NCBI GenBank assembly: GCA_021158055.1 | Contig: JAGGVJ010000040.1 | Location: 68,114-100,473, forward strand | From: Candidatus Iainarchaeum sp. | GTDB lineage: Archaea > Iainarchaeota > Iainarchaeia > JAGGVJ01 | Reading direction: 5' to 3' | DNA: 32,360 nucleotides | Shown here: piece by piece, positions 2,806 through 18,990 of the stretch | How the letters are laid out: the number at the start of each line of letters is the position of its first letter | Position numbering within the stretch: position 1 is the first letter of the stretch | Position numbers and translations under genes: made by a program | The notes under the pieces: model-generated | What the model saw: the letters and a program-made list of their open reading frames with translations, nothing else | Told to the model about the DNA's origin: nothing | The model's database searches: none

Positions 2806-5800
2806 ATGATCTTAAAACAAGTATTTTCAATATTTTTGTGCGGAATCCTTCTGCTGTCACTCCCACCGATAACCCTTGCGGCAAACGGAAACCCTGTTTA
2901 CAGCGCAGGCAGCGGCGAATCCACCAGCTACTCTCCGACAAGCCTTGAAAGCACTTGCAAAACCACGCGCCTTCTGCCCGAAGAAGTCCTGAAATTGTGG
3001 GATAATACAATCGGTGAAAAATCAACTTCGATAATTCCCATGGACGAAAGCGCGGAATCAATAAACGGCATTCCGCAAAGCAACATCAACCCCAACGCCT
3101 CAATAGTAGGCGACAACGGCGAAACAGTCACTGAAGTGCCAAACGAGCTCATCCCAACAAAACACTACGCAAACCTTCTTGAAAACGGAATGATTACCGG
3201 GGAACAGATCTCCGTAAGCTACTCCACAAAAAAAACCGTGCGGATAGGACGCGCGCACGAAAACACCACACTTGGAAAAACCGGTGGAAAAAACAAGCCT
3301 TCCGGAGCATATGTTGTGACTCCGACAGAGAGCAGGGACTTTGAAGTGCGCGAAGAAGGAAACCCTGACGACATTGCTCTTTTCAGCGACTTCCAGAAAA
3401 GATTCAACCAAATGGTAACAACAGGGATAGTGCTTTCCTTTGTGGGACCCGGCTTGTTTGAAAAGGCCTACCTGAAGTATTTCGGGCCAAAAAAACCCGC
3501 CGGAAAACTCTTTGGGAAAAACGTGCAAGCGCAAAAGCTTGAAAAAACAATGCCTGTTTCACACAAGGAATTCATGAAAATTAGCGATGACCTCGACAAA
3601 GAGCTGGACGAATTGAGCAACACCATAAACCAGTGCATTGGCTGCAAAAATTTTCTCAGGGCAGCCGTGAACAAAGAAGGTATTGAGCCGGAAATGATTC
3701 AGGGTCTTCTTAAAGGCACAGAAGGCAACCCGGGTTTCAGGGCACAAGTACTAGGCTTTCTTGAAGACTGGTCCAGTTATGCAACGAAAAAAAACCAGCT
3801 CATGCTGCACGAATGGCAGACCGCGCAAAGATATGAAGACCTGATAAAAGGAAAACTGATGGGCAACGGTGCCCTTGAAAATGCACCACTCGGGCTTATC
3901 ACGCCTGGAAGCAAATTTTACGGTTACGCTGACGAAGTCGTGGAGGTCGTTTCAGGGAACAACACCTACAACGCTCTTCACATAACAGACCCTGAAAAAA
4001 TAGGGGACTTATTTGCAGTCACAGACCTTACAAGACCCAGGCCGCAGTGGTTCAGGGACATCATGGTGGAACACTACAACGAAATCGAAATAGACGCAAC
4101 GTCAAGACTTAAGGGCATGCTCTCAAAAAATGGGTTCAAAATCCATCTTAAAGACGGAAGGATAATAGACGCCTCCCCCCAGAAGATGAACGAAATAAGC
4201 GACCTTACCCAGATAAGCCACATTGAAGTAAAGGGCGGGGCATGGGACATACCAAACGACTGGTATGAAAATGAAGGAGAAGAGCTTTGGAGAAGATTCA
4301 ACGGCTACATTGATTCAAGAAACTTTGAAAAAGAAATCGGAATGGAAGTAGGTTACTCAAAAGGAATAAAAAGCACGGAGAAAGGCCTCATAGCAAGAGA
4401 CAACACTTATATCATTGACAAAAAGGGAAGGCAAAACATAATCGAAAAAGGACAAGTAATTCCGGAAGGCTCCCACATTGTGCAGGAAGGCACGTTCGTC
4501 ACTCCGGGAATTGGAAAAGAAATACGCGAAAAGAAACTTCAATGGGGTATGAGACAACAGTACGCAAATTCAGTTGATAACATACAGGAAGTTTTGGACA
4601 GCATACTCGGCCCGGGCTGGAAGCCGAAATACATAAACCCTGAAGAGACAGCAAAATACAACTTTGAACGGTGGATGCTTTCACTTGACATGACAAAAGC
4701 ATGGGGAGACGGAAGCACTGTTGCAAGGCAGTCAATCGAAAGGTTCATGACAGTAAATGCGGTGGGTTTTGTCAGAGGGACCCTGCTGATAAACCTGTTC
4801 AGCAAACTTCACCTCGGCTCGTTCACAATCTACCCGGGCCCGATAAATGCGCCGGGACTGGACTCGGGTGAAAAGCTTTACGACGAAGCATACCTGGACA
4901 TATTTGCAAACTACAAGCTTGACGACGGCGACTTTTTCAACAAATACTGGCTGAACAACTTTGTCATGCCCCTCCCTGTCATAAAAGACCTTTTCGCAGA
5001 CGAAAACAGGGCAGGGCAAGTTGACAACATGGCTTACATTGACTCGACGATAGAAGGGATAATTTCAGGCGGCAATCCCAAGGTAAAGCTTGGAAGCCTC
5101 GCGAAAGCCGATTCAAACAAATCGCTTGAAACGTTTGACATAATAAAAGACTTCAACAACGTGCCTTCAGAAACTTTCGCAACTGAATTCCCGAAGCCGA
5201 AAAACAGGAAAATCGGAAGAACACTCCTTTCAAAAACAAACGAAGTGAACATTGAAAGCACTATCGGGGGAAATGACTCCGAAGGGATCGACCTGTCGTA
5301 CTCGATGGGTGAAAACGAGCTCTGCGACCAGAAACTCCTTTCAAAAGACATTGCGACAATCCCTTACCTGAACAGGGAAATGTCGCTTACAGACCCGATG
5401 ACTGCCGGGCTTGAACTGTTCCCGGGCCTCGGGGACATAATGGTGTGGGGTGTGGAGACAAAGTTCTCGGAATGCATTGATGATTCATATTACCTGATGC
5501 TTTACACTTCATTAAAAGAAGACTCAAAATCCCAGGACGCAGTAAGAGAACTGCAGGACGCGGCGTCCCAGGCGACAGCGTTCTTTGACAGCGCCGGCGT
5601 TGCTGAAAACGGCGCGTCGCTTGATTCAACTGCCCAGGAAATACAAAACAAGATATCAAACATGTCAAAAGCGCAAAACATGCTTCAGGCAAACGCGAAA
5701 TTCAAGCACGGGTTCACGGGTTCAAACAGTTCGGACGGGCTGTTTTATTTCTGGTGCAAGGAATGCGAAATAACCAAAAACAGCGAAAACGGCCGCGAAT

Positions 5801-7161
5801 GTTATGAAAACAGCGAGGGAATAATGGTATGCATTGATGCTGCGGAAGGAAACATAACCGGCTCTGAGGGAAACCCGATTATCGGGTGGGGGTCCCCGAC
5901 CGCTGACCAACACCCTTTCTGGGGAGAAGACTTTGCAAGAATACAAAGAAAAGACATGGGGATTCCAGCAACAATGATTCCGCAAAGCATGACTTACCTG
6001 ACCCTGCCGGCCGCAAACGAGACAATGTTTATAATTGACAACAAGGGCTACTCCTGGATACACTCAGAAGAAGCAAGCAATTGTTTCGGGAAAGCGGTTG
6101 CAGACCAGACCGGCCAACCCCTGCAGTCCAACAGCTTGTTTGAAGTGCTCGGGTTTGTCATCGCAGTGGAAACAACAGACGGGGTGGGTTCAGTTTCAGA
6201 CAACTCCATATTCTTTTCAGGCAGTGATCTGAGGGTGATTGGTGAAGACAAATCAGAAATGACAATCTCGACAGACAGGAAAACAGGCCTTTCAGGAAAC
6301 CTCAAAGGCGCAGAAGAACGCACTTCAATGGGTGAGATGACAAACATTTACTTCCAAAACGGTCTCGTAACCTGGAAAAAGGGAACAGACAAGCTCATAA
6401 TCTGGATCTACTCGCTCGGGAGCGCAAACAAGCAAAGCGTGCAGAACATGGAAGTAACCCCAACAAAAATAACCAACGAAATCAACGGGTGCGTTGCAGA
6501 ATGGGCATTTGACCTGCAGATAATGGGCGCTGCAAACCCGCTTGCGCAAAAAGACGTTGCGGGCCTGCAGCAAGGTCTTGATACGATCGGGCCTGTCCAA
6601 ATCTTTGAAACAGACGACGAAATATTCCAGTTCACTTCAAAACTAGAGGACATCTGCCGGTATTACCTGAAAATCTACAACAAAAAAACAAGGGAATGGA
6701 CCCAGTTTGAAATAGAGGACGTAGTCACGGTCCCGGGCGGATTCAAGATAATCGGGGTCGAGGACGAGGAACACACCCTGCTTTTCAGGGTCGAGGACGG
6801 AAGGCCAATTCTCACTCACAACGGGCAGGACCAGTTCATAAAATCAGCAAGCGCCAAAAACGGCACTTTTTATTACGACCCGTCAAGCGGGACGTGGTAC
6901 GCAAGCAACAGCCAGTTGATTCCTTTAAGCGACCTTTTCAAGCAAAACGGGTTCAAGGTTTCTTCAGACAACGGCCAGACCTCGGCTGTCCCTGGACAAA
7001 ATCCGATAGGAAGCCTTGTGATAAACAACCCGGGCGCGCCAATTGCGCCGCTTAATCTGCCGCTCTTCCCGCAGGAACCCGCAATGCTTGCTTTAATGCT
7101 TCTTGCAATGCTTTCTTCAATGCTTGCAATCAGACTTAAAAGAACGGAGGGAAACAAATGA
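2806..7161 (+). CDS. Giant (1451 aa) membrane-anchored surface protein, unknown family
   Basis: The N-terminal signal peptide (hydrophobic core about residues 5-22, likely cut after ITLA near residue 25) and a single C-terminal helix (about 1425-1444) followed by basic RLKRTEGNK give the topology of a surface protein held by its C-terminus. The start ATG has GGTG 8 bases upstream. The body is mixed alpha/beta with helical, charged stretches early (for example DDLDKELDELSN). Cysteine groups (QCIGCKNF, then FWCKECEI, RECYE and VCIDA) could make disulfides or bind metal. The C-terminal third looks beta-rich with repeated short strands, ending in a proline/asparagine-rich stalk before the anchor. 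No catalytic motif was recognised. The stop codon overlaps the next gene (ATGA at 7158-7161), so the two are probably translated together. It may be an S-layer-like or adhesion component; this is inference. Confidence 0.8.
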   Translation: MILKQVFSIFLCGILLLSLPPITLAANGNPVYSAGSGESTSYSPTSLESTCKTTRLLPEEVLKLWDNTIGEKSTSIIPMDESAESINGIPQSNINPNASIVGDNGETVTEVPNELIPTKHYANLLENGMITGEQISVSYSTKKTVRIGRAHENTTLGKTGGKNKPSGAYVVTPTESRDFEVREEGNPDDIALFSDFQKRFNQMVTTGIVLSFVGPGLFEKAYLKYFGPKKPAGKLFGKNVQAQKLEKTMPVSHKEFMKISDDLDKELDELSNTINQCIGCKNFLRAAVNKEGIEPEMIQGLLKGTEGNPGFRAQVLGFLEDWSSYATKKNQLMLHEWQTAQRYEDLIKGKLMGNGALENAPLGLITPGSKFYGYADEVVEVVSGNNTYNALHITDPEKIGDLFAVTDLTRPRPQWFRDIMVEHYNEIEIDATSRLKGMLSKNGFKIHLKDGRIIDASPQKMNEISDLTQISHIEVKGGAWDIPNDWYENEGEELWRRFNGYIDSRNFEKEIGMEVGYSKGIKSTEKGLIARDNTYIIDKKGRQNIIEKGQVIPEGSHIVQEGTFVTPGIGKEIREKKLQWGMRQQYANSVDNIQEVLDSILGPGWKPKYINPEETAKYNFERWMLSLDMTKAWGDGSTVARQSIERFMTVNAVGFVRGTLLINLFSKLHLGSFTIYPGPINAPGLDSGEKLYDEAYLDIFANYKLDDGDFFNKYWLNNFVMPLPVIKDLFADENRAGQVDNMAYIDSTIEGIISGGNPKVKLGSLAKADSNKSLETFDIIKDFNNVPSETFATEFPKPKNRKIGRTLLSKTNEVNIESTIGGNDSEGIDLSYSMGENELCDQKLLSKDIATIPYLNREMSLTDPMTAGLELFPGLGDIMVWGVETKFSECIDDSYYLMLYTSLKEDSKSQDAVRELQDAASQATAFFDSAGVAENGASLDSTAQEIQNKISNMSKAQNMLQANAKFKHGFTGSNSSDGLFYFWCKECEITKNSENGRECYENSEGIMVCIDAAEGNITGSEGNPIIGWGSPTADQHPFWGEDFARIQRKDMGIPATMIPQSMTYLTLPAANETMFIIDNKGYSWIHSEEASNCFGKAVADQTGQPLQSNSLFEVLGFVIAVETTDGVGSVSDNSIFFSGSDLRVIGEDKSEMTISTDRKTGLSGNLKGAEERTSMGEMTNIYFQNGLVTWKKGTDKLIIWIYSLGSANKQSVQNMEVTPTKITNEINGCVAEWAFDLQIMGAANPLAQKDVAGLQQGLDTIGPVQIFETDDEIFQFTSKLEDICRYYLKIYNKKTREWTQFEIEDVVTVPGGFKIIGVEDEEHTLLFRVEDGRPILTHNGQDQFIKSASAKNGTFYYDPSSGTWYASNSQLIPLSDLFKQNGFKVSSDNGQTSAVPGQNPIGSLVINNPGAPIAPLNLPLFPQEPAMLALMLLAMLSSMLAIRLKRTEGNK

Positions 7162-7625: not shown

Positions 7626-7673
7626 ATAGTTCAGGATTCAGACATAGATAAATTTTTTTAGAATTCAGACATA
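7616..7673. repeat. Imperfect direct repeat copying a terminator T-run and a gene's last codons
   Basis: AAATTTTTTTA occurs at 7616-7626 and 7650-7660. ATTCAGACATA occurs at 7636-7646 and 7663-7673. The two blocks are in the same order, and the first copy is about 7 to 10 bases longer between them. The second block encodes, on the minus strand, the final Tyr-Val-stop of the PAC2 gene, so that end exists twice. Confidence 0.7.
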
Positions 7674-8420
7674 CATTGAGTTGCCTGAATTGTTTTTTGT
7701 GAACTTTTCTTTCTCGTTTTTGAGCTTGTCGTAAACAATCTGCAGCTGGTTGTCAACAAGTTTGGCTTCTTTTAAAAGCGGTTTTATGTCAAGGTCAAAC
7801 TTAAGCAGCTTGCTTAACTTGGTAATCACTGCCGCAGCAGAGTGATAGTCAGGTAGGTCTGCGGGAGTTTCTCCAAGAATACTCAACGCAGGCTTTTTGT
7901 CTGAATGGCACCGCACAAGCAAGAGAGCAGAAAGCCCGGAACTTATGCCGTCATTTATTATTTCAACATCAAGCGACTTGAGCTTTTCAACCTCGGCGTC
8001 AGTGCTTCCAAACCCAAAAACCTTGGGTTCGGCTCCGTTCTTTTTGTTGTCAGTAACCTTCCTGCGGGTCTTTATCCCGCTAAGCGACACCATGCTTTTG
8101 AAATTTCTTTTGCTTGCCCAGTCATAAATCGCGTCTGACACTTCGTAGCTGACCTGCATCGGCAGCGCATATTCAGAAATGATCAAAATAATATCCATTT
8201 TTTCGCTTGCATAAATTCGCGCTGAATGAAACGGTTTTCCGTTGTGTATTATTACAAACGGGGGAAACTTGTCTGAATCAATGAACCCTATTTGTTTCAT
8301 GTCAAGTTTTTCAATCAAATACTGTGCTGCGATAACACCGACTTTTCCGCTTCCGCTGAACCCCTCGATGAGTATCGGGGAATCAAGTGAAACATCTTCA
8401 AATTCAACTATATTCGTCAT
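7665..8420 (-). CDS. PAC2-family proteasome assembly chaperone/activator homologue (copy 1)
   Basis: 251 residues. The N-terminal third shows the PAC2 pattern (ILIEGFSGSGKVGVIAAQYL, then FIDSDKFPPFVIIHNGKP). It continues through an ARIYASEKMD strand, an SEYALP turn, and a C-terminal lobe containing ISSGLSALLLVR and GETPADLPDYHSAAAVI. Eukaryotic PAC1/PAC2 and archaeal PbaA/PbaB help assemble or open the 20S proteasome. The protein ends in NSMYV, which fits the HbYX rule (hydrophobic residue, Tyr, any residue) used by activators to dock on the 20S alpha ring. The second copy at 20261 ends MYQ. The P-loop-like GFSGSGKVG is part of the PAC2 fold, not evidence of an ATPase. The start ATG at 8420 has the spacing GGTGAAAAAATG and a TATA box about 55 bases upstream. 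It lies downstream of the pilus cluster but has its own promoter. Confidence 0.88.
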   Translation of the reverse strand: MTNIVEFEDVSLDSPILIEGFSGSGKVGVIAAQYLIEKLDMKQIGFIDSDKFPPFVIIHNGKPFHSARIYASEKMDIILIISEYALPMQVSYEVSDAIYDWASKRNFKSMVSLSGIKTRRKVTDNKKNGAEPKVFGFGSTDAEVEKLKSLDVEIINDGISSGLSALLLVRCHSDKKPALSILGETPADLPDYHSAAAVITKLSKLLKFDLDIKPLLKEAKLVDNQLQIVYDKLKNEKEKFTKNNSGNSMYV

Positions 8421-8568: not shown

Positions 8569-9510
8569 TCAAACAAGCAATCCGCTGAAAAACAAAAACA
8601 CAAAAAGTGCGCATGGGAGCATCAAAGCCGAATAAAGAACGCCTTTCCTGATGTTTCCCTCCTGCAAAGCCAGGAAAAACGATGCGATAACCGAATACAA
8701 GGCAAGGTAAATGTGGGTTCCGAAAACAGCGTTTTCAAGCACTTCTTTTTTAAGTGCCGAATCCATTCCGAAACCGATTTCAACAAGCCCTGAAAAATCA
8801 AGCGACGAGACCATACCAAGCAGTATTCCAAGTATGGCCGGCACAAAAAAAGCACCTGCCAAAATCAATGTGTACTTCTCAATAGACAAAGAAGCCTGAC
8901 TTTCCCTGTAAAGTGACCTCACTTCGTAAATATCATCTGCGACTTCGCGCAGGGCTATGCTCATGTCAAAACCTGTTGAGTAACCCTGGCTCAGGAGAAC
9001 GCAGGCTCGCCTGACAAGGGAAGAATTGCACCGCCGCCAAAGCCCGTCAAATGCCTCCGGAACAGGTGCCCCTGCATTTATCTGTTTCAGGGTCAGCGCA
9101 AATTCATCGGAAAGCCACGGATAATTCGAAGAAGAAACCGACGCAAGCGATCGTTCAATTGGCGAGCCTGCAGGAAAAGAAGACATTTGGTAAAGGGCGT
9201 CAGGCAAAAACAGCTCTATCTGGCTTACTCTTCTTGCGCAGATCATTCCCGCTGAAAAAAACACAATCAAGGGAGGCGCAACTATTGAGAAAAACAAAAG
9301 AATCCCCTTCATTGAACTGACTGAACCGCCTGTATCAAACAAGTCAGATGCGGCTAAAACCAAAAAAACCAAAAAAATGCTTGCAAGATAAGACAAATCA
9401 AAAAAACGGTAAATGTCTGTTTCCCCAACTACCCTTGACAGCTCTTTTGACAACACTAACAAATTGTCTTTTCCAAAAACAATATCTGAAATCAGTCTCA
9501 TTTGCATCAC
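8569..9510 (-). CDS. T2SSF-domain membrane platform protein, TadC-like (module B)
   Basis: 313 residues. Two hydrophobic helices near residues 40-58 and 70-92 are followed by a soluble helical T2SSF (GspF/TadC) domain (about 95-215). That domain includes FLPDALYQMSSFPAGSPIERSL, an INAGAPVPEAFDGL turn and LLSQGYSTGFDMSIALREVADDI. Further membrane helices come at about 220-245 and 265-310. Such proteins form the inner-membrane base turned by a TadA/PilB/FlaI-type ATPase. It is last in the set ATPase (10472), T2SSF (9577), T2SSF. Start choices are GTG 9510, ATG 9507 and ATG 9501. GTG 9510 has the best spacing from GAGG. The upstream junction carries a triplicated ribosome-site repeat. The fold class is clear; whether the machine makes pili or secretes something else is not. 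Confidence 0.85.
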   Translation of the reverse strand: MMQMRLISDIVFGKDNLLVLSKELSRVVGETDIYRFFDLSYLASIFLVFLVLAASDLFDTGGSVSSMKGILLFFSIVAPPLIVFFSAGMICARRVSQIELFLPDALYQMSSFPAGSPIERSLASVSSSNYPWLSDEFALTLKQINAGAPVPEAFDGLWRRCNSSLVRRACVLLSQGYSTGFDMSIALREVADDIYEVRSLYRESQASLSIEKYTLILAGAFFVPAILGILLGMVSSLDFSGLVEIGFGMDSALKKEVLENAVFGTHIYLALYSVIASFFLALQEGNIRKGVLYSALMLPCALFVFLFFSGLLV

Positions 9511-9585
9511 TTCACAACCTCATTTCAATCATAATTCACAACCTCATTTCAATCATAATTCACAACCTCATTTGCATCACTTCAT
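9497..9585. repeat. Tandem repeat (about 24 bp, 3.5 copies) duplicating the ribosome-binding junction
   Basis: The unit CTCATTTCAATCATAATTCACAAC is present exactly twice (9519-9542 and 9543-9566). It is flanked by shorter variants CTCATTTGCATCACTTCACAAC (9497-9518) and CTCATTTGCATCACTTCAT (9567-9585). On the minus strand each unit gives ATGAGGTTGTGAA, so the GAGG ribosome site is present three times between the stop of the gene ending at 9577 and the start at 9510. The start-codon context TGATGCAAATGAG is also copied at the upstream gene's stop. Confidence 0.9.
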
Positions 9586-10428
9586 AAAAACAGGGGTTTT
9601 TGAACGGATAAAACACAAAACACCCAGGTCAATCAACGGAAAAACAACTGCGGGAATTAAGAGCGCCTGCATGGGAGTAAAAGACAGGTAAAGAAAATTT
9701 GAGCCGACAATAATAAAAGCCTGAAAAAGCGCCGGCACTATTGCTGAAACCGCAATAAAAACAAGCGAAAACACAACCAATCTGCCGTTGTATTCAGTCA
9801 TTTCAGATTTTTGCTTTGAAAGCTGTTCCTGCGCAACAGCCTTCAGCGGTTCTCCCGCGGTTCCTTCATCTGGTTTTCCCTGCTCGTACACTGAAATCAT
9901 GTGGCGAACACATCTTTTGAGATAAACTGAATCAACGCGCTCCCCAAAACCATTTAACGCGGACTGCACCGAAGCACCTGCAACACGAATATCCAAAAGC
10001 ACGATCCCCATTTCTTTTCCGGCTTCCCCAAAAGACGGGTTGGCTGCGTTTTCAAGCACTTTTTCAAACGGAAGATTCACATTTATCTCAATTGCCATCG
10101 TGCGAAGAAGAAGAGGGAGCTCTGACTCAATTTTTTTTCCCCTGATTTTTTTAAGGCGGTTTGGGTAAAAACTTAACCCAAAAAAGTACACGGCAAAAAA
10201 CAGTAGCGAAAAAACAACAGGGAAAAACACAATACTCAGCCACAACGACACCACTGAAGAAACAAAAAGAGAAACCAGTACGGCAACCAAAATCACTGCC
10301 GAAACAAATGAATCCACACTGCTGTCAATCCCCGCCTGCAAAAGGTCTTTTTTCAGTTTTTCTTTTCTTTGCGCAGAACAAAAAACTTTCAAAAAACCGT
10401 TTTTTAATGCAACTTCCAAGCCACTCAT
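9577..10428 (-). CDS. T2SSF-domain membrane platform protein, TadB-like (module B)
   Basis: About 283 residues from the ATG at 10428 (MSGLEVALKNGF). A longer in-frame start at 10506 would overlap the upstream ATPase gene by 35 bases and adds residues without the look of a protein start. The product has a basic amphipathic N-terminus, two membrane helices (about residues 40-85), then a T2SSF cytoplasmic domain with LPLLLRTMAIEINVNLPFEKVLENAA, VAGASVQSALNGFGERVDS and a helix of charged residues. Two or three closing membrane helices follow. It pairs with the protein at 8569 as the two half-platforms of module B, directly after the Fe-S-domain ATPase. GGTGTTGTT precedes the chosen start and is itself duplicated. 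The family is clear from the hydropathy plan and helix motifs; the exact start is moderately certain. Confidence 0.8.
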   Translation of the reverse strand: MSGLEVALKNGFLKVFCSAQRKEKLKKDLLQAGIDSSVDSFVSAVILVAVLVSLFVSSVVSLWLSIVFFPVVFSLLFFAVYFFGLSFYPNRLKKIRGKKIESELPLLLRTMAIEINVNLPFEKVLENAANPSFGEAGKEMGIVLLDIRVAGASVQSALNGFGERVDSVYLKRCVRHMISVYEQGKPDEGTAGEPLKAVAQEQLSKQKSEMTEYNGRLVVFSLVFIAVSAIVPALFQAFIIVGSNFLYLSFTPMQALLIPAVVFPLIDLGVLCFIRSKTPVFMK

Positions 10429-10457
10429 AACAACACCCGCCCATTCACAACAACACC
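10420..10457. repeat. About 19-bp tandem repeat over a start codon and its ribosome site
   Basis: On the minus strand GGTGTTGTTGTGAATGGGC (10457-10439) is followed at once by GGTGTTGTTATGAGTGGC (10437-10420) after a single G. The second copy contains the likely ATG of the gene ending at 9577. The first holds GTG in the same place, as if the whole initiation region had been copied. Confidence 0.75.
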
Positions 10458-10471
10458 TGTCCTTTGCTGCC

Positions 10472-12286
10472 TCAAACATCCCCTGCATCAAAATAAAACC
10501 CGCCATCGCTATTTTTCAGAACAAACCTGAGCTTTTTCTTTGCGTGCTTCAGTTTTTCCGCAAACTTTTCACCGCGAAAGGCCATTTCAACTTTTCTTTT
10601 TATCACAACACTGCTGCCTGCTTTTTTCAGTTTCCCCTTTGAATGGTCAAATTCAAAAACAGTGTTGATTTCAGGGGCACCGTCTTTGCTTCGTTTTATC
10701 TCGCTTATCTCAACAATTTTCCTGACCTCTCTTTTTGCCTCTTTGCTGAACTCAGTCCACCTTCTCTGAACCACAATCAAGTCAATTGACGGCAAATCAA
10801 TCCCAAGCACGCCAAGGTTTTTCAGCCTGAGAAGCGCTTCCGAAGCGCTTTGCGCGTGAAACGTGGCAAAAGACCCCTTGCCCTGGCCGGCAAGAACAGT
10901 ATTCATGAACGCTTTTGCCTCGCGCTCATCCCGCACCTCACCCACTATTACGCGGTCCGGGCGCATGCGCAAAGAGTCAAGAACCAGGTCACTCATGCTC
11001 ACTTTCAAAGAATCATTTACTGCCAGACGCACCACGTGAGGGTGAGGCAGGTTTATCTCCGGGGTTTCCTCTGTAACTATTATTCTTTCGTCAATAGGAA
11101 CAAAAGAAAAAAGAGCATTCAAAGTAGTGGTTTTTCCCGAACCCGTGTTTCCTGCAATCACCATGCTTGAATCTACAAGCATTGCAAGACACAAAAAACT
11201 CATTGCGTCCAGGTTAATCGTCTTGCTGCTGATTAAATCAGCCGGCGTAAACGGCTTGCTTCTAAACTTCCTTATTGTCAAAACACAGCCGTCAAGCGCA
11301 AGAGGAGGGATAACAGCATGCATTCTCGAACCGTCTGAAATGCTTGCGTTGAGCCTCGGGGTTGTGAAAGTGACTCTCCTTCCAAGCGACCTCGCCATCT
11401 TATTTATCACTGCAATGGTTTTTTCGCTCCCTGTCAAAAAAAGGTTTGTTGCAAGCCACCCGAAAGAATTGTGAAAGACATAAACGGGTTTCTCGTCGCC
11501 TATCAATGCAATCTCTTCAATTTCATCGTCCTTCATGAGGCAAGAAAGCGGCCCGAACCCTGTTATTTCGTTTTTTATGATTTCAAACAGGTAACTCTCC
11601 TGAAAATCATCAAGCTCCAGGCAAAGCGCGTCACAGTACCCTTCAAGCAGGTGTTTCAAATCCATTTCAATGTTGCTGTCTTCTTTGGCCCTTATTTTTT
11701 GCTTGTATTTCAAAAGGATGTCTGAAACAATTTTTGCTTCGCTTCCGCTGAGCTCCGGAACATCAACGATTTCGTAAAAATTTAACTGGCAACTGCTGCC
11801 GTGGCGGTTATCAGCGAAAGCGTTTCTTGCTGAACAAATTATTCTGGATTCGTTTTCCTTAAGCACAAGCGGGCGTTTGCCTGAAGAACGCGGTTTTATT
11901 TTCCAGCCAAGAACTTTTTCAGGCGGCAGCTCATCTGAAAAGTCAACGCTCAATGCATTGACAGGGCAGACCTTCACGCACTCGGGAAACTGCCTTGACA
12001 TGCACAAGTCGCATTTTATTAAGTGGCCTGGTTTTATGGCTTCAAAATCACATTTTACGGTACATTCCCGACAAGTTGCGCATTTTTTCGTGTCAAGCAC
12101 AAGCACTCCCTGAAACGATTCAAAAAAAGCGTTTTTCGAGCATGTTTTCCTGCACAATGCAGTGTCCGGATCGCAGTGCTGGCACTCAAATACCATGTAT
12201 TCAGTGGGTTTGTTCGGACACGCGTCCAGACACTTTCCGCACTTTATACAAATATCAGAATCCCGCCTGATTCTCATTTCCCGCAA
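10472..12286 (-). CDS. TadA/FlaI-type secretion ATPase fused to an N-terminal four-cluster [4Fe-4S] polyferredoxin domain
   Basis: 604 residues. Residues 1-110 hold 16 cysteines in four groups: C13/16/19/23 (CxxCxxCxxxCP), C35/38/45/49, C69/72/75/79 and C92/95/103/107 (last CP). This is the order and spacing of HycB/DmsB-type subunits that carry four [4Fe-4S] clusters in an electron-transfer chain. Residues about 180-545 are a secretion ATPase of the PilB/TadA/FlaI family, with an N-terminal domain (EITGFGPLSCLMKDDEIEEI), Walker A GNTGSGKT (379-386), an Asp-box-like region TEETPEINLPH (405-415), Walker B RVIVGEVRDE (445-454) and His box ATFHAQ (474-479). A basic tail follows. The ATPase should drive the two T2SSF proteins encoded next. 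The TTG at 12286 and ATG at 12277 are both possible starts. All ATPase and cluster residues look intact. Electron transfer controlling or sensing ATPase activity is inference; I know of no characterised member with this fusion. Confidence 0.9.
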   Translation of the reverse strand: MREMRIRRDSDICIKCGKCLDACPNKPTEYMVFECQHCDPDTALCRKTCSKNAFFESFQGVLVLDTKKCATCRECTVKCDFEAIKPGHLIKCDLCMSRQFPECVKVCPVNALSVDFSDELPPEKVLGWKIKPRSSGKRPLVLKENESRIICSARNAFADNRHGSSCQLNFYEIVDVPELSGSEAKIVSDILLKYKQKIRAKEDSNIEMDLKHLLEGYCDALCLELDDFQESYLFEIIKNEITGFGPLSCLMKDDEIEEIALIGDEKPVYVFHNSFGWLATNLFLTGSEKTIAVINKMARSLGRRVTFTTPRLNASISDGSRMHAVIPPLALDGCVLTIRKFRSKPFTPADLISSKTINLDAMSFLCLAMLVDSSMVIAGNTGSGKTTTLNALFSFVPIDERIIVTEETPEINLPHPHVVRLAVNDSLKVSMSDLVLDSLRMRPDRVIVGEVRDEREAKAFMNTVLAGQGKGSFATFHAQSASEALLRLKNLGVLGIDLPSIDLIVVQRRWTEFSKEAKREVRKIVEISEIKRSKDGAPEINTVFEFDHSKGKLKKAGSSVVIKRKVEMAFRGEKFAEKLKHAKKKLRFVLKNSDGGFYFDAGDV

Positions 12287-12295
12287 AGCCCCAAG

Positions 12296-12682
12296 CTATT
12301 GCGCCCGAGTCTCAAGCACATCGTTTATTTTCAAATTTTTTGCCATCCCCGCAGGCAGCTCCACAATATACTTTGCTGCCTTTTCTGGAACTACCATGGG
12401 GGTAAACGGCTTAATATTCCTTTTGATGTCCACTATTTTCCAGGCGGAATCCAGGAAAACAACGTCAATTGAAAAAAACACAAAAAACATATGTATTGCC
12501 GCATCAAGCCTGGCTTCGTAATCAAGCACAAAAATAAGTGCATGGTGCGTTTTCCCCCTAAACATCAGGCCCCTCATTCTCTGAAAAAACGTAAGCGCCC
12601 ACTCGACCTTGCCTGAAATCAGTTTTTTGTCGCTTTTTCTGAAAAGAGCTTTGTTGTTTTTACTTTTATTGTTTGGATCCAT
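12296..12682 (-). CDS. DUF192 family protein
   Basis: 128 residues. The DUF192 (COG1430) signature is clear: FFQRMRGLMFRG, HALIFVL, a central IHMFFVFFSIDVVFLDS strand block, KPFTPMVVPEKAAKYIVELPAG and a final small domain. The family is small, beta-rich and of unknown function. Many members carry a signal peptide or lipid anchor, while this one has only a basic, polar N-terminus and so is probably cytoplasmic. It lies between module A (ending 12714) and module B's ATPase (starting 12286, ten bases downstream), so it is probably co-transcribed with the pilus genes. Its role there is unknown. Confidence 0.85.
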   Translation of the reverse strand: MDPNNKSKNNKALFRKSDKKLISGKVEWALTFFQRMRGLMFRGKTHHALIFVLDYEARLDAAIHMFFVFFSIDVVFLDSAWKIVDIKRNIKPFTPMVVPEKAAKYIVELPAGMAKNLKINDVLETRAQ

Positions 12683-12713: not shown

Positions 12714-13943
12714 TCACGTGAGCTGGACGTACCATTTCTTGTCCTCGTAAAGAAGTTCTATGAAAACTTCCGCCGGCTTAACCACTTTTACATAATTCGG
12801 CCTTACGGCCAGGTCGCCCTGCTTGCACGGAACGCAAACACCCGAGTCCCGGAAAGCAAAATCATTACTGACTAATCCTTTTATCCACTGGTCATATGGC
12901 TCTGCTGTCTCAGACATTTTGTTAAGGTGCCTTGAAATGTCCTCGCGGTGAATATCCTTTGTCAGGTAATACGAGCCGATTGCAACTTTCATGTCTTCAG
13001 AGCCTGGTGGAAGAATCAAAACCACTTCCGATATTCTTGCAACAGGATTCGGAACCGGAACAAAGAACTGGAAAACAAAAAACCCAATAAACACCAGGAT
13101 AAAAGCGTGTTTCAAACCCGCAATGGCCCTTCCTTCACTCATAATTCCCGCGACAAGCCCGTTGAAAAAAGCCTGTATGAGCGCCAGATTCATCAAAAGT
13201 GTCCTGAAAGACCCTTCAGATATTACTGCCCCTCCGCCGAGAATCTCTTTTAATCCTGCCATTCTGGGAAGCGCGGGAATAAACCCCAACTGAAGCACGG
13301 CGACAATTCCAAGAAACACGACGTAAATAAAATACATGGTATAAGTGTATATCTGAAGGTTTCCTTTTCTTTCAGCTTCAAGCTGTTTGATTTTTTGCGC
13401 GTCAATCGCAACGGTTTCAAGAATGTCTGCAATGGATCCCCCTGAACGGTGGGCTTCAAGAATAATCGAAACAGACCTTTTTATTATCTTGCTGTCTGTC
13501 CTGTCCGCAAAATCTTTAATGGCTTTTGAAAACGGAACCCCCCAAGAAATCTGGTTTGATATCTTTTTCACTTCAATAGACAAATCACCATAATAAGTAG
13601 TGCTTGTGGCGTAAACTGCTTTTGGAAGAGTCATTCCCGCCCGTTTTGATTCCGAGATATCCCTGAGAAAAACCGGAAAACTCTCTTCAATTCTCTCAAT
13701 CCTCATATAATCGTTGTACTTGTGGTATGCAAGCGGCCCAAAGCCTACTATCAACCCGATAAAAACCCAGTTGAAAAACGAATCTGTTCCAAAGAAAAAC
13801 AAAAACGCCACCAAAAGCGAGATAATCAACATGAAACCGCCGAAAATATAATACAAGTGCTCGGCTTTCAGCTCAAAGCCGTACCTGCTGGCAAGATTCT
13901 TTGCTTTTGACCAGTACTCTTGTGACAACGCGTAAATATCCAT
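12714..13943 (-). CDS. T2SSF-domain membrane platform protein, FlaJ/TadC-like, with extra C-terminal domain (module A)
   Basis: 409 residues. Two membrane helices (about 30-50 and 57-73) precede a typical T2SSF domain: FPVFLRDISESKRAGMTLPKAV, ISWGVPFSKAIKDFADRT, SIILEAHRSGGSIADILETVA. More helices follow at about 198-220, 245-270 and 277-297. The FlaJ-like core ends near residue 310. The remaining 100 residues are soluble: LPPGSEDMKVAIGSYYL, a helical part, then VCVPC (C370, C373) and strands to the end (EVFIELLYEDKKWYVQL). That tail is unusual for this family and could bind metal or form a disulfide, depending on which side of the membrane it lies. The start ATG overlaps the upstream stop (TAATG), so the two half-platform proteins are translationally coupled. 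Confidence 0.87.
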   Translation of the reverse strand: MDIYALSQEYWSKAKNLASRYGFELKAEHLYYIFGGFMLIISLLVAFLFFFGTDSFFNWVFIGLIVGFGPLAYHKYNDYMRIERIEESFPVFLRDISESKRAGMTLPKAVYATSTTYYGDLSIEVKKISNQISWGVPFSKAIKDFADRTDSKIIKRSVSIILEAHRSGGSIADILETVAIDAQKIKQLEAERKGNLQIYTYTMYFIYVVFLGIVAVLQLGFIPALPRMAGLKEILGGGAVISEGSFRTLLMNLALIQAFFNGLVAGIMSEGRAIAGLKHAFILVFIGFFVFQFFVPVPNPVARISEVVLILPPGSEDMKVAIGSYYLTKDIHREDISRHLNKMSETAEPYDQWIKGLVSNDFAFRDSGVCVPCKQGDLAVRPNYVKVVKPAEVFIELLYEDKKWYVQLT

Positions 13944-14839
13944 TACACCACTTCTTTTGGTTTGCTTGAGTCAAGCAACAATATAAACAATACTGACATC
14001 GCCGGTATTACAAGATAAATTGTCAGCTCAAGAAGAGCTTTTCCCCCGATCGGGAGGTTTAAACCCCCTATGATTGACATTATGGCAAGCATGACTATAA
14101 AAAGAATCGGGGCTGCCACAAACATTGTCGTGTATATCTCGGAAAGCATGGAAAGGGTTTCAATGTAATCTCTTTCAATCCTTCTGTGCTCTTCAAGCAT
14201 GATCTTTGCCTCTTCGTTGAGGTAATCTCTTATGACCCCTCCGGAACGGATAATTGAAACTACCCCCCAAAGTACGTCAGAAAACTTTTTTGACGGGCAC
14301 TTCATTGCAACTTTTTTCAGTGCAGTGTTTATGTTGTAACCGAAAATTTGCGTGTTTCTGACTATGTCTTTGCATTCCCTTGAAATTTCCTTGTATTCAT
14401 CAAACTTTGACATCAGCTCAAACACTTTGTCCGGGGGGATTCCCGTACCTGCAATGGTTGCCATGTGGGTTATGGCATACGGAAGGTCCCCATCTATACT
14501 TTGCTTGCGTTCATTTATCCTGTAAGTCGGGTAAAAATAAAAAAACATAAAAAAAATAATGCCCATTATGAAAGCACCGATTACAGCTGTTAAAAACATA
14601 AGCATGCTTATCATAAAACCAAAAAACACCAACAGGAAAAATATTAAAAAAAAAGACGCAATAAAAACAAAAACTGAAGTTGCAAGAGACCCTGCCACAT
14701 ACTCTTCACTTGTCATGAGTATTTTTGCACTGCGCAGGCTGCCCTGAAGGTCCCCGAAAGAAGGCATTATTATATCAACATAGTCTTTCAGTCGCCTGTA
14801 TGCTGCCAACCTGTATTCTCTCGGAAATATCATTTTCAC
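13943..14839 (-). CDS. T2SSF-domain membrane platform protein, FlaJ/TadB-like (module A)
   Basis: 298 residues from GTG 14839; ATG at 14833 gives 296. An N-terminal soluble part is followed by two long hydrophobic segments (about 50-75 and 78-105). Then comes the T2SSF domain (DGDLPYAITHMATIAGTGIPPDKVFELM, NINTALKKVAMKCPSKKFSDVLWGVVSIIRSGG) and two C-terminal membrane helices. It sits between the module A ATPase (ends 14887) and its partner at 12714. In the archaellum, FlaJ has both half-platforms in one chain; here they are two genes as in Tad systems. An AGGAG site lies shortly upstream, around an ATGTGA that partly repeats the end of the previous gene. Confidence 0.87.
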   Translation of the reverse strand: MKMIFPREYRLAAYRRLKDYVDIIMPSFGDLQGSLRSAKILMTSEEYVAGSLATSVFVFIASFFLIFFLLVFFGFMISMLMFLTAVIGAFIMGIIFFMFFYFYPTYRINERKQSIDGDLPYAITHMATIAGTGIPPDKVFELMSKFDEYKEISRECKDIVRNTQIFGYNINTALKKVAMKCPSKKFSDVLWGVVSIIRSGGVIRDYLNEEAKIMLEEHRRIERDYIETLSMLSEIYTTMFVAAPILFIVMLAIMSIIGGLNLPIGGKALLELTIYLVIPAMSVLFILLLDSSKPKEVV

Positions 14840-14886
14840 AACTCACATGTGCTCCTGATTCACTCTCCCGGATTTTTCAAACACAT

Positions 14887-17295
14887 TCACATGTTTTTGA
14901 GTATTTCATCCGGGTTCTTATAGTACGTATTTATAATTTTTCCAACTTCCTTGTAATACCTTATATTTGATTTTTTCATCCAGTCAAGAACTTCGGCGCG
15001 TCTTCTAAGCTCAGCCCACAATGATTCTTCAGAAGTTCCCTTTTGCTCAATAATTTTATTTAATATATACGACTTATCAGAAACAAAAGCAAAAGTGTCA
15101 TCAGTCGGGTTCCATTTCATAACTGTATTTGTTATCGGTTTCCCGGTGTCAATATCTATTCTTATGATTTCTATGAGTTCAGTTACGCGCCTTACTTCCA
15201 TTTGTTTTATCCTGGTGTGATGCATAAACAAAACAAGGTCAAGACTGCTTAACAAACCAAGAGGCAGGTTGATTGGCTTTGTAATAAGCCTGTTAAGAAG
15301 CTCTGAAAAGTCACCTGCGTGAATCGTTGCCATTCCGGGGTGTCCGGTTGCCATTCCCTGGAAAAGGACGTTTGCTTCCACCCCACGCACTTCCCCCACA
15401 ATTATCTCATCAGGCCTCTCCCTTAAAGCCGCTTTAAGCAAGTCAAACATGGACACTTCACCTTGTCTTTTGCCCGTGACATCAACTGATCCAAAACCGG
15501 TCCTGATGACTTTCGGCACCCAGTTCTCGTGCGGAAGGTTAATCTCGGGAGTGTCCTCAATCGAAATAATCTTTATCCCCGGAGGCAAAAGCATTGAAAT
15601 CGAATTCAGAGTGGAAGTTTTTCCGCTGGCAGTTCCACCGCTGATCAGGAGAGACTGCTTGTATTCAACTGCAAGCCACAGAAAAGCAACCATCATGGAA
15701 GGTATTGTTCCCGAGCTTATAAGGTCGATCACAGTCAAAGGGTCTTTTGTAAATTTCCTAATAGTAAACGTTGAGCCCTTCATGGAAATTTCATTTCCGC
15801 TGCTGTACGTCGCCTGCACCCTGGAACCGTCTTCAAGCGAACCGTCAAGAAGGGGGTCAGCAACACTTATGTGTCTTCCGCAGCGCTGGGCAAGTTTTAT
15901 CAGGTATGAATTCAAGGATTCCGTATCAATAAATTTTTTGTTTGTTTTTATGGAACCGTATTTCCTGTGGAAGATATAAATAGGCAGGTTTATTCCGATG
16001 CATGAAACGTCCTCTATCTCCTTGTCCCTCATAAACGGCTCAATAATCTCCAGCCCGATGAAATCCCTTTCAATATAATACTTCATTTTTTCGTACTCTG
16101 ATTTCGTGAGAAAAATGGCGTAATCCTGAATTATGCGGTCCATCTTATTGTATATATAATCGCGGATTTTTTCCTCTTTTTTCAGTTCAAAAAGGTTCAC
16201 ATCCAAAAAGTCAATCAAAAGGGTTTTTATACGATCCAAGGTCTTTTTTTCTCTTTCCGTTAACGGCGGCTCGAGAACATAGTACATTAAACCGTTTATC
16301 TGATCAATCCATTTTATATTCGAATACGCATACGGCTCAATAAGCGAATATTTTTCGTCGACTTTCTTCAAATCAACCGGCTCCCACTCGCTGGACATCT
16401 TTTTTATCAGGTCTTTTGGTATCCTGTGCATTGTTTCAGGAAGGTTTTTCATACCCATTTTATTGACTATAAAATCAGCTTCCCCCTTGCCCACTGCTTT
16501 TATCTGGCTAAGGTCAATTTGCTGGTATACTTTTGGGGACCGTGAAAAAACAACCATCGGAACAGTCGGCGCAGCAACTGAAGCTACAGGGGCAACATCA
16601 CCGCGTGAAGCAATAGCACCTTCCGCTCCTTTAAAATACCCCTCCAAAAAGCCCTGGTTTTGAACTTTACCGGTAGTAATTTTTCTGCCCCCCTGCTTCC
16701 CGGAAAATCCAAGAGCAGACGGCTTGGGCAAATCGCTTTTGCTATCGCCGGAACCCGACTCTTCAAACAAAGTATTCTCTTTAAGATATTCAAACGGATT
16801 CTTTTGAGGCCCCCTGGCTTCTCCGGCTTCCGTTTTACCTTTTTTTAGTTTTTCATTCATTTCTATGATTTCAGGCATGAAAAAATCCGGCTCGTCAAGG
16901 TCAATGCTGGAGTCAATTTTTGCTGCCTGCAAGTCAGATTTTTCCGGTGTTTTTCCATTTTCGTCGTCAAACATCTGTTCTTCTGAAACAACTGATTCAA
17001 CAACTTCTTGTTTCAGTGGCTCTTCAGATTCTTCTTGTCTTGCTGTTCTTTGCCAATAGCCTTCAGGGGGTTTTTCAATAACCATTTTTTTGTAAAGGTT
17101 ATCTGTCAAAGCGCTTCGCTTTTTTGAAGAAGCTGACCTGTACACTACAACAGGTTTTTCCTCAAACGACGACTGCACGTGTCTCTTGCCTGAATATTTG
17201 CGCGGTTTCGAAACCCGTCGCGCAGCTCCGGAAATAAGTTTTCTCGCTACTTTTTTGTTTATCTTTTTTAAAATACCGTTGTTGATTTTAGCCAT
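14887..17295 (-). CDS. TadA/FlaI-type secretion ATPase with long disordered N-terminus (module A)
   Basis: 802 residues. Residues 1-45 are strongly basic (KKINKKVARKL and similar). Residues 80-250 are low-complexity, acidic and probably disordered. Residues about 255-410 form a helical N-terminal domain, and 410-725 the ATPase: FIGLEIIEPFMRDKEIEDV, a DGSR motif (489-492), Walker A GGTASGKT (553-560), SIEDTPEINLPH (578-589), Walker B DEIIVGEVRG (629-638) and His box GMATIHAG (654-661). A C-terminal helical piece follows. It matches archaeal type IV pilus/archaellum ATPases (FlaI, PilB-like) and heads the gene order ATPase, T2SSF, T2SSF. Module B's ATPase shares the core but has Fe-S clusters instead of this tail. 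No ribosome site is obvious before the ATG, so the message may be leaderless. Confidence 0.92.
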   Translation of the reverse strand: MAKINNGILKKINKKVARKLISGAARRVSKPRKYSGKRHVQSSFEEKPVVVYRSASSKKRSALTDNLYKKMVIEKPPEGYWQRTARQEESEEPLKQEVVESVVSEEQMFDDENGKTPEKSDLQAAKIDSSIDLDEPDFFMPEIIEMNEKLKKGKTEAGEARGPQKNPFEYLKENTLFEESGSGDSKSDLPKPSALGFSGKQGGRKITTGKVQNQGFLEGYFKGAEGAIASRGDVAPVASVAAPTVPMVVFSRSPKVYQQIDLSQIKAVGKGEADFIVNKMGMKNLPETMHRIPKDLIKKMSSEWEPVDLKKVDEKYSLIEPYAYSNIKWIDQINGLMYYVLEPPLTEREKKTLDRIKTLLIDFLDVNLFELKKEEKIRDYIYNKMDRIIQDYAIFLTKSEYEKMKYYIERDFIGLEIIEPFMRDKEIEDVSCIGINLPIYIFHRKYGSIKTNKKFIDTESLNSYLIKLAQRCGRHISVADPLLDGSLEDGSRVQATYSSGNEISMKGSTFTIRKFTKDPLTVIDLISSGTIPSMMVAFLWLAVEYKQSLLISGGTASGKTSTLNSISMLLPPGIKIISIEDTPEINLPHENWVPKVIRTGFGSVDVTGKRQGEVSMFDLLKAALRERPDEIIVGEVRGVEANVLFQGMATGHPGMATIHAGDFSELLNRLITKPINLPLGLLSSLDLVLFMHHTRIKQMEVRRVTELIEIIRIDIDTGKPITNTVMKWNPTDDTFAFVSDKSYILNKIIEQKGTSEESLWAELRRRAEVLDWMKKSNIRYYKEVGKIINTYYKNPDEILKNM

Positions 17296-17376
17296 CAGAG
17301 AAACTAAATGGTTTTGAATTAATATTTGTTTTGATTTTTTTGAAAAAATAACAAAAATACCTAAAAAATCAACGGC

Positions 17377-18120
17377 TCAAAAACTTATGGATCCAATTAT
17401 TGAAAAAATAATAAGAAAAAGCAGATTTGTTGAGAAAAAAATTGAAATTATGTAACCTGCAAGCAAGGCAAACATAAACGGCGGAAGAGGGGTTACCCAG
17501 ACAAGGTCTTTTATCTTTTTTTCTGCAACAAGTTTCTTCAGACGCTCAAATTCATCGTCAGGGTCAACGTTTGGAACAAGATCAACCTGCCTTTTTCCTT
17601 TCCCGTCAAAAGAAACTTTTTCAAGCGGAGAAACAAAACTGTTGCATTTAATTGAACTTATTTTTACAGGATAACCAATAAAATAAAACAACGGGTTTTG
17701 CGGTTTGTTTGCGCGAAACAAATTCCATGCAAAAACACACACCGGGACTGCAACGGCACTCAAAAGCAATGCATTTACAAAAACCGACAACGAAAAATAC
17801 ACGGTTTGAGCCGGACTTGCAAACTGGTTCAGGGAAGCAACTGCAACAAGGGCTTTTAAGTCGCCCCCTCCGATATAAAGAATGGGAAAAATTTCCCCTG
17901 CCTTATGCAAAACAAAAACAAAAACAAAAACAAGCCCTGCTGAAAAAACGAACGCCTGCATTACCTCAACTTTAAGTGAAGCAAGCGAAAGCAACAAGCC
18001 GACGGCAACTGCGATCACCCAAACCTTATCCGGAACCTCGCGAAATTTAAAATCAAACACACTTGCGACCGCAAGCATCAGAACAGTAAACGCAACGGAA
18101 ACAAAACCAAATAAAAACAT
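17377..18120 (-). CDS. Archaeal prepilin peptidase (A24 family, PibD/FlaK/EppA type)
   Basis: 247 residues with about six membrane helices. Both catalytic aspartates of the A24 aspartic proteases are present: D23 in ASVFDFKFREVPD and D87 in the GxGD motif (GGGDLKAL). A basic, charged cytoplasmic loop (about 150-205) separates the N-terminal four helices from the last two. The enzyme cuts the positively charged leader from pilin-like proteins before assembly. A likely substrate type is encoded at 1-690. It is upstream of module A, separated by 81 bases, and is probably transcribed from its own promoter or as the head of the cluster. Confidence in the family is high; which of PibD, FlaK or EppA it most resembles cannot be settled by eye. 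Confidence 0.92.
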   Translation of the reverse strand: MFLFGFVSVAFTVLMLAVASVFDFKFREVPDKVWVIAVAVGLLLSLASLKVEVMQAFVFSAGLVFVFVFVLHKAGEIFPILYIGGGDLKALVAVASLNQFASPAQTVYFSLSVFVNALLLSAVAVPVCVFAWNLFRANKPQNPLFYFIGYPVKISSIKCNSFVSPLEKVSFDGKGKRQVDLVPNVDPDDEFERLKKLVAEKKIKDLVWVTPLPPFMFALLAGYIISIFFSTNLLFLIIFSIIGSISF

Positions 18121-18249
18121 ACAAACAACTTCAAAACACCCTAAAAAACGCTTTATCTATCATATTATCACAATGTATCAAAACACACAGCATATATATT
18201 AAAAATACATCCTATATATAATACTTAAAATACTTATTTGGAAATTGCA

Positions 18250-18269
18250 TTTATTTATATTTATTTATA
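18250..18269 (+). promoter_or_regulatory. Tandemly duplicated TATA-like element before the cis-prenyltransferase gene
   Basis: TTTATTTATA occurs twice in direct tandem (18250-18259 and 18260-18269), 26-45 bases before the TTG start at 18295. Either copy can act as a TATA box and would give a very short or absent leader from the second copy. A further AT-rich element, CTATATATAATAC, lies near 18211. Confidence 0.5.
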
Positions 18270-18294
18270 CTGCAAACAATTCAACGGTGAAAAT

Positions 18295-18990
18295 TTGCTC
18301 AACTCAATCGCTTTTATCCCTGACGGCACAAGAACTTACGGCAAGCAAAACAACTTGTCTGTCAAGGAAGCGTATTCTTTAGCAGTAAGCAATGCATGGG
18401 ACATTCTTGAAGAATTAATAAATTACAAAACAATTAACTCATGCACTTACTGGGTGTTAAGCACTGAAAACTTCAGGCGCTCAAGACTGCAGATTAAAGT
18501 GCTTTTCAGAATTTTCCAAAAAGAGCTTGAAAAAATTTCCGAAATGGACTTTTTTGAAAAAACCGGCGCCCGGCTCAATTTCATAGGCAGGAAAACAATG
18601 CTTCCCACAAAACTCCAGGAGCTAATGAAATCATGCGAGAACAAAACAGCAGACTACGGAGAAAAACAAGTGAACATCGCCATTGCTTACGGGGGCAGGT
18701 CTGAAATTGCCGACGCCTGCAAAAAAATATGCGTGAAAGTTCAGGAAAACAAATTGTCGCCTGACCAGATAACCGAGGCAACAGTCAGGGAAAACCTTTA
18801 CCCCGGAACAATTGACCCGGACTTTATAATCAGGACAAAGGGAGTAATGAGAACCTCTGGTTTTCTTGCATTTCAATCCGATTACTCAGAATACTATTTT
18901 TCAAAAAAGCTCTGGCCCGAATTCAACAGAACCGACCTCAAAAATGCAATAAGCGATTTTAATTCAAGAAAAAGAAACTTTGGAAAATAA
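18295..18990 (+). CDS. uppS: Cis-prenyltransferase (undecaprenyl-diphosphate synthase family)
   Basis: 231 residues from the TTG at 18295, which follows GGTGA with a 4-base spacer. The longer open frame from 18238 adds residues that do not match the family. Motifs in order: IAFIPDGTRTYG (catalytic Asp10, as in MDGNxRW), YWVLSTENFRRS, LNFIGR, VNIAIAYGGRSEIADAC and the substrate-binding stretch PDFIIRTKGVMRTSGFLAF, then SEYYFSKKLWPEF. It condenses isopentenyl diphosphate units in cis to make the long polyprenyl diphosphate that becomes the lipid sugar carrier. In archaea this supplies the dolichol-type carrier for N-glycosylation. N-terminal His of the usual HxAxIMDG is replaced by Ser/Ile. It is convergent with the geranylgeranyl reductase gene, one base away. 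Confidence 0.92.
   Translation: MLNSIAFIPDGTRTYGKQNNLSVKEAYSLAVSNAWDILEELINYKTINSCTYWVLSTENFRRSRLQIKVLFRIFQKELEKISEMDFFEKTGARLNFIGRKTMLPTKLQELMKSCENKTADYGEKQVNIAIAYGGRSEIADACKKICVKVQENKLSPDQITEATVRENLYPGTIDPDFIIRTKGVMRTSGFLAFQSDYSEYYFSKKLWPEFNRTDLKNAISDFNSRKRNFGK

Follow-up and report, generated by a model that had tools for sequence, protein, structure and literature searches.

An N-terminal domain of the ferredoxin type, with 16 cysteines in four groups, is fused in frame to a complete secretion ATPase in one gene of the window (the whole stretch of 32,360 nucleotides analysed here). This Fe-S fusion is a real and conserved domain architecture and is apparently undescribed so far: a search of openly accessible full texts found no earlier description of an Fe-S/secretion-ATPase fusion, and the 2016 census of archaeal type IV systems mentions no ferredoxin fusion (PMC4858521). 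We give about an even chance to the reading that the domain serves the motor as a regulatory or docking module, dependent on its clusters and sensing redox, oxygen or iron, and not as an electron wire. The gene and its parts are as follows.

10472..12277, reverse strand: Fe-S/secretion ATPase gene, 601 aa from ATG 12277
11912..12277, reverse strand: N-terminal 16-Cys domain, HycB/DmsB/NrfC-like, up to four predicted [4Fe-4S] clusters
11762..11911, reverse strand: linker with LGW motif, common to fused and unfused orthologues
10589..11761, reverse strand: secretion ATPase module (N-terminal subdomain, Walker A/B, His box, C-terminal part), T2SSE and FlaI profiles

Architecture of the fused protein

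The open frame (10472..12286, reverse strand) is unbroken and comprises 604 codons when counted from TTG 12286. The methionine at residue 4 (ATG 12277) is invariant among fused relatives, so the true start is probably ATG 12277 and not the TTG. A preliminary description of the gene had claimed a 16-Cys domain joined to a FlaI/TadA-type ATPase with Walker A, Walker B and His boxes, and each element was recovered. Both parts lie in one open frame with matching profiles; Walker A (GNTGSGKTT), a Walker B segment (RPDRVIVGEVR) and a His box (ATFHA) are present and conserved across aligned relatives; and the T2SSE profile (PF00437), which had been proposed as a check on the ATPase part, matches residues 309-519 (4.7e-35, 121.4 bits against a gathering cut-off of 24.9). 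Judged from profiles and motifs, the ATPase part is unmistakably complete, of the T2SSE/VirB11 type and FlaI/TadA-like, and its best matches among solved structures are archaeal GspE (2oap), CpaF and FlaI (4ii7). The FlaI equivalog model NF058587 aligns to residues 196-566 (1.4e-54) with 185.7 bits, below its cut-off of 550, and TadA TIGR03819 aligns to residues 233-495 with 177.3 bits, below its cut-off of 373; on profile scores, the enzyme is not classed as the archaellum motor FlaI.

The 16 cysteines (13,16,19,23 / 35,38,45,49 / 69,72,75,79 / 92,95,103,107) fall exactly at the positions first described. The Fe-S part is matched by the Fer4 profile above its cut-off, by the PDB entry for NrfC/PsrB (2vpw_B, 2.6e-7) and by DmsB TIGR02951 (5.7e-9), the last with 36.2 bits against a cut-off of 214.1 and thus below it; sequence-search matches are DmsB, HycB, NrfC/PsrB and AorB subunits. 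PF13247 matched no protein in the window's genome, the fused gene included. On these scores the domain is therefore a sister of the HycB/DmsB/NrfC subunits and not a member of the TIGR02951 or PF13247 models. A whole-protein AlphaFold2 (AF2) model with 10 sequences was poor in the Fe-S part (pLDDT about 45-50), so the domain was remodelled alone from an alignment of 32 homologous sequences, giving a pLDDT of 81.3. Foldseek matches to this model at TM 0.64-0.72 include formate-hydrogenlyase subunit 2 (FHL-2), AorB-type aldehyde oxidoreductase subunits, HycB3 of hydrogen-dependent CO2 reductase, polysulfide reductase B and the WOR5 small subunit (WOR5-S). The best matches are mostly four-cluster subunits with TM about 0.7 (0.67-0.72 for FHL-2, AorB, WOR5-S and HycB3), and the predicted fold is a two-subdomain ferredoxin fold of the four-cluster type. 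The initial assignment to a HycB/DmsB-like four-cluster domain is thus upheld by cysteine spacing, by the Fer4, TIGR02951 and 2vpw_B matches, by the predicted fold and by conserved ligands.

Known proteins resemble each half of the fusion. HycB/HyfB, FdnH, NrfC/PsrB, AorB and DmsB/NarH have in common with the window domain 16 cysteines in four groups and I/IV plus II/III pairing, and its predicted fold aligns with theirs at TM about 0.7; unlike HycB/DmsB/NarH-type subunits, however, it is shorter (about 122 aa), is fused to a motor ATPase, lacks a catalytic partner and varies in cluster number (4-3-2) across its relatives. A. fulgidus GspE (2oap), FlaI/ArlI (4ii7) and TadA/CpaF (8rkd) share with the window ATPase the Walker A/B motifs, the His box, the N-terminal subdomain and a FlaJ/TadB/C partner, but their N-terminal parts are helical or of another kind, and they lack an Fe-S domain. 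The zinc tetracysteine domain of GspE/EpsE lies at a different place in the protein. It is a precedent for metal-binding cysteines needed by a secretion ATPase, this part of EpsE being reportedly essential (PMC5061722), but it holds zinc and not ferredoxin-type clusters. The Pyrobaculum/Thermoproteus ATPase arCOG05558 (subclade 4D) has a small N-terminal domain with conserved cysteines that were read as disulfides (PMC4858521). By description it resembles the window ATPase in placing a small cysteine-bearing domain before an archaeal secretion ATPase, but it belongs to another phylum and another operon (with a TFIIB variant and an unrelated membrane protein).

Loss of cysteines by ligand set and history of the fusion

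Conservation of the cysteines in relatives, on which the preliminary description had made its assignment depend, is strong: across 27 orthologous domains the window's cysteines are kept in 86% of alignment cells, compared with 26% for the other residues. In NarH, FS1 is bound by Cys 16, 19, 22 and 263, FS2 by 26, 244, 247 and 259, FS3 by 184, 187, 192 and 227, and FS4 by 196, 217 and 223 (PMC5338063); electrons pass in numerical order from FS0 to FS4, and the linear chain has FS1 and FS4 at its two ends (PMC8840923). In motif terms, FS1 is I1-3+IV4, FS2 is I4+IV1-3, FS3 is II1-3+III4 and FS4 is II4+III1-3. Domains among the carriers contain only 16, 12 or 8 of the cysteines. All 16 are present in 21/32 domains, exactly the FS1 set {I1-3,IV4} is missing in 6/32 (family f7 and genus g2 of f2), and exactly the FS1+FS4 sets {I1-3,IV4,II4,III1-3} are missing in 4/32 (genus g5 of f2). 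Exact NarH-type set losses, in keeping with I/IV and II/III pairing, thus account for 10/11 reduced sequences, the ambiguous exception being micrarchaeal L242, which lacks group III, or the FS4 set if a one-residue slip is allowed. Given loss of the I1-3 block, the chance that the further lost cysteine is IV4 is about 1 in 13. Among the 21 fused Diapherotrites sequences, the sole invariant cysteines of the N-domain are the eight FS2 and FS3 ligands.

Short of biochemistry, the loss of cysteines as complete NarH-type ligand sets strongly indicates that the predicted clusters are real and that chain-end FS1 and FS4 are the dispensable part. The I1-3 block has gone by substitution in f7 and by deletion in f2, so these FS1 losses are probably separate events. 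The resulting 4-3-2-0 series among orthologues of a single gene offers natural variants with which the importance of each cluster can be probed, and it illustrates clearly how multi-cluster ferredoxin domains decay by whole ligand sets. Four g5 sequences without the FS4 ligands (L170, L176, L177 and L178) have two new common cysteines elsewhere (FEC/YEC and VLC), possibly a new metal site.

The preliminary description had asked how many archaeal genomes carry this exact fusion. A class survey of the window's lineage (87 genomes) found it in 21 genomes, the window's included, from 9/23 families of Diapherotrites/Iainarchaeota (f1, f2, f3, f7, f9, f10, f16, f20 and f22), and a survey of 301 Micrarchaeota genomes found it in six orthologues with matching gene context (L231-L235, L242). 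In two DPANN phyla the fusion thus appears to be both old and widespread, and its exact form has been trimmed or lost many times. Many ATPase orthologues have no Fe-S domain, and in the remaining families the unfused protein often begins near the LGW linker; orthologues throughout the survey are followed by the same platform genes, and their flanks (DUF192, PAC2 and a large secreted protein) are mostly shared as well. No fusion was found in 371 genomes of the Woesearchaeota phylum or in two further phyla (23 and 34 genomes), the latter being weak negatives at strict thresholds. The matches listed by a full-alignment contig search were filled up by bacterial TadA, with the Cys motif in 0/82 ATPase frames among them.

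An assembly or frameshift artefact was rejected on the presence of the fusion in 21 genomes of the phylum and six Micrarchaeota orthologues. A false join between residues 110 and 180, which the preliminary description had named as a possible flaw, is excluded by a linker that is homologous across carriers and whose LGW part opens many unfused orthologues. A single late gain, with carriers forming one clade, was rejected on the ATPase tree (AU p 2.6e-8), yet the Fe-S domains of orthologues group together, apart from those of the paralogue and from free ferredoxins (SH-aLRT 91). The simplest reading is therefore one old fusion, before or around the Diapherotrites/Micrarchaeota split, followed by many losses; gene transfer between lineages may be an alternative source of the patchy carriers.

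A further secretion ATPase family of Micrarchaeota, about 733-760 aa long and not orthologous to the first, also carries a 16-Cys domain of this kind (L236:6439-8718, L237:1-1202, L238:5873-8074, L239:4457-6655, L240:5891-8431 and L241:6097-8298). This family adjoins its own platform genes, with class III pilin-like frames nearby in L236, and is most simply read as an independent recruitment of the same kind of domain. A free relative of the fused domain was seen by eye at L181:1-3368 (G031), where a four-cluster ferredoxin stands beside an aldehyde:ferredoxin-oxidoreductase-like protein.

Gene neighbourhood and genome background

The surroundings of the fused gene contain the following features.

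9577..10506, reverse strand: platform protein 1 (FlaJ/TadB/C-like, T2SSF), T2SSF 6e-5, just under cut-off
8569..9510, reverse strand: platform protein 2 (T2SSF), T2SSF 4.6e-14, conserved second gene in relatives
7665..8420, reverse strand: PAC2-family protein, conserved downstream neighbour, PF09754 1.8e-45
12296..12682, reverse strand: DUF192 protein, upstream neighbour, also upstream in relatives of both phyla, PF02643 9.7e-18
12714..17295, reverse strand: separate pilus set without Fe-S domain, platforms 12714..13943 and 13943..14839, ATPase 14887..17295
17377..18120, reverse strand: prepilin (preflagellin) peptidase, PF01478/PF06847, FlaK NF040695 5.1e-18
18238..18990: cis-prenyltransferase near the ATPase locus
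18992..20110: geranylgeranyl-reductase (GGR)-like flavoprotein near the ATPase locus

As first described, the ATPase gene heads two platform genes, both T2SSF-type, directly downstream and in the same direction. The first of them (9577..10506) overlaps the ATPase stop, is conserved as the next gene in relatives and may have its true start further downstream; several Micrarchaeota have one long platform protein. By sequence assignment the locus has the ATPase and FlaJ/TadB/C platform protein(s) by which archaeal type IV filament systems are recognised. The prepilin peptidase adjoins the separate upstream pilus set (whole set 12714..18120). No class III-signal pilins were recognised in the window, and a class III-signal pilin-like frame stands beside the orthologue in L232. 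In the loci inspected, from Diapherotrites relatives and Micrarchaeota, none of the genes adjoining the fused gene was recognisable as coding for a redox enzyme, and an Rfam search of the window gave no match. Two larger proteins are encoded nearby. That at 2806..7161 (1451 aa), which no Pfam model matches, has an N-terminal signal-like segment and a C-terminal membrane segment. Many relatives encode its C-terminal part close to their PAC2 gene, and the protein is a possible surface partner. That at 739..2301 (520 aa) has N-terminal membrane segments, a long charged middle and a zinc-ribbon-like C-terminal end.

The window's genome (1.15 Mb in 45 contigs) encodes at least seven secretion-ATPase genes. 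It also encodes the pyruvate:ferredoxin oxidoreductase (POR) alpha subunit, so low-potential ferredoxin is likely available in the cell. No SUF-type Fe-S assembly proteins were found in this genome. SUF genes occur in 0/11 genomes with the full 16-Cys form versus 21/55 (Fisher p 0.012), a nominal association with two independent pairs only, for which a phylogenetic test is powerless; the absence of SUF with the full form might reflect strict anaerobiosis.

Possible roles of the Fe-S domain

The encoded protein is most likely the ATPase that drives a small archaeal machine for type IV filaments or secretion, working with two platform proteins. Ahead of the ATPase N-terminal subdomain stands the ferredoxin-derived module, whose sites for up to four [4Fe-4S] clusters are shown by cysteine pattern, fold match and conservation of ligand sets. 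With its clusters intact, or in one redox state, the module would adopt a conformation that allows motor assembly, platform docking or turnover; oxidation, oxygen damage or lack of iron would alter this conformation and switch the machine. Electron conduction would not be its main task, chain-end FS1 and/or FS4 being gone in trimmed orthologues. The fusion is old and has been lost so often that the motor itself must work without the Fe-S domain, and since most orthologues lack it, its effect cannot be essential to the motor. A cluster domain that is kept, trimmed by whole clusters or dropped points to a machine that probably responds to redox, oxygen or iron state, and redox gating, the idea first put forward for this gene, is plausible. 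If the clusters control the motor, these small-genome archaea would be able to switch their surface machinery directly in response to redox, oxygen or iron state.

The data that fit gating also fit a purely structural or docking role. The clusters would then only hold together a small ferredoxin-like domain whose binding partner is the platform, a pilin or a neighbour protein, with redox state irrelevant, which we consider possible, if doubtful. Secretion ATPases dock by their N-terminal parts, as in GspE-GspL. The retained part is the central cluster pair, the complex 4pht is among the fold matches, and the domain is repeatedly lost while the ATPase stays; however, propping up a docking domain with oxygen-labile clusters is expensive, and the full 16-Cys form has been kept in many separate lineages.

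The preliminary description had also allowed that electrons are passed to the membrane. Such electron transfer, in which the domain would take electrons from reduced ferredoxin and hand them on, by way of the machine, to an acceptor in the membrane or at the surface, is improbable. The domain has the fold and the ligand pattern of electron-transfer subunits, and POR is encoded in the window's genome and in 20/21 domain carriers tested, but also in 36/45 genomes without the domain. It is disfavoured because FS1 and FS4, the chain ends where partners would dock, have been lost in several lineages and no oxidoreductase is recognised alongside the gene, and many orthologues lack the domain altogether. 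There is an equally slim chance that the motor is coupled to electron flow, such that POR-reduced ferredoxin charges the cluster chain, the electrons set the ATPase or exit to a host cell or mineral, and trimmed orthologues are uncoupled descendants.

Repeated trimming and loss would suit a decaying relic that no longer has a function, or a store of iron or clusters, but this is very unlikely given the 86% versus 26% conservation, the losses by complete ligand sets and the recruitment of the same kind of domain by a second ATPase family. Least credible is a tethered ferredoxin of the GGR/cis-prenyltransferase pair that feeds lipid-carrier reduction and not the motor: GGR-ferredoxin gene pairs are known (PMC10821996) and both genes (18992..20110 and 18238..18990) lie close by and, in several Micrarchaeota, directly upstream of DUF192-ATPase, but they are conserved with or without the Fe-S domain (L234, L235, L246, L248-L250) and stand beside unfused ATPases in L246 and L248-L250, so that the linkage is independent of the domain.
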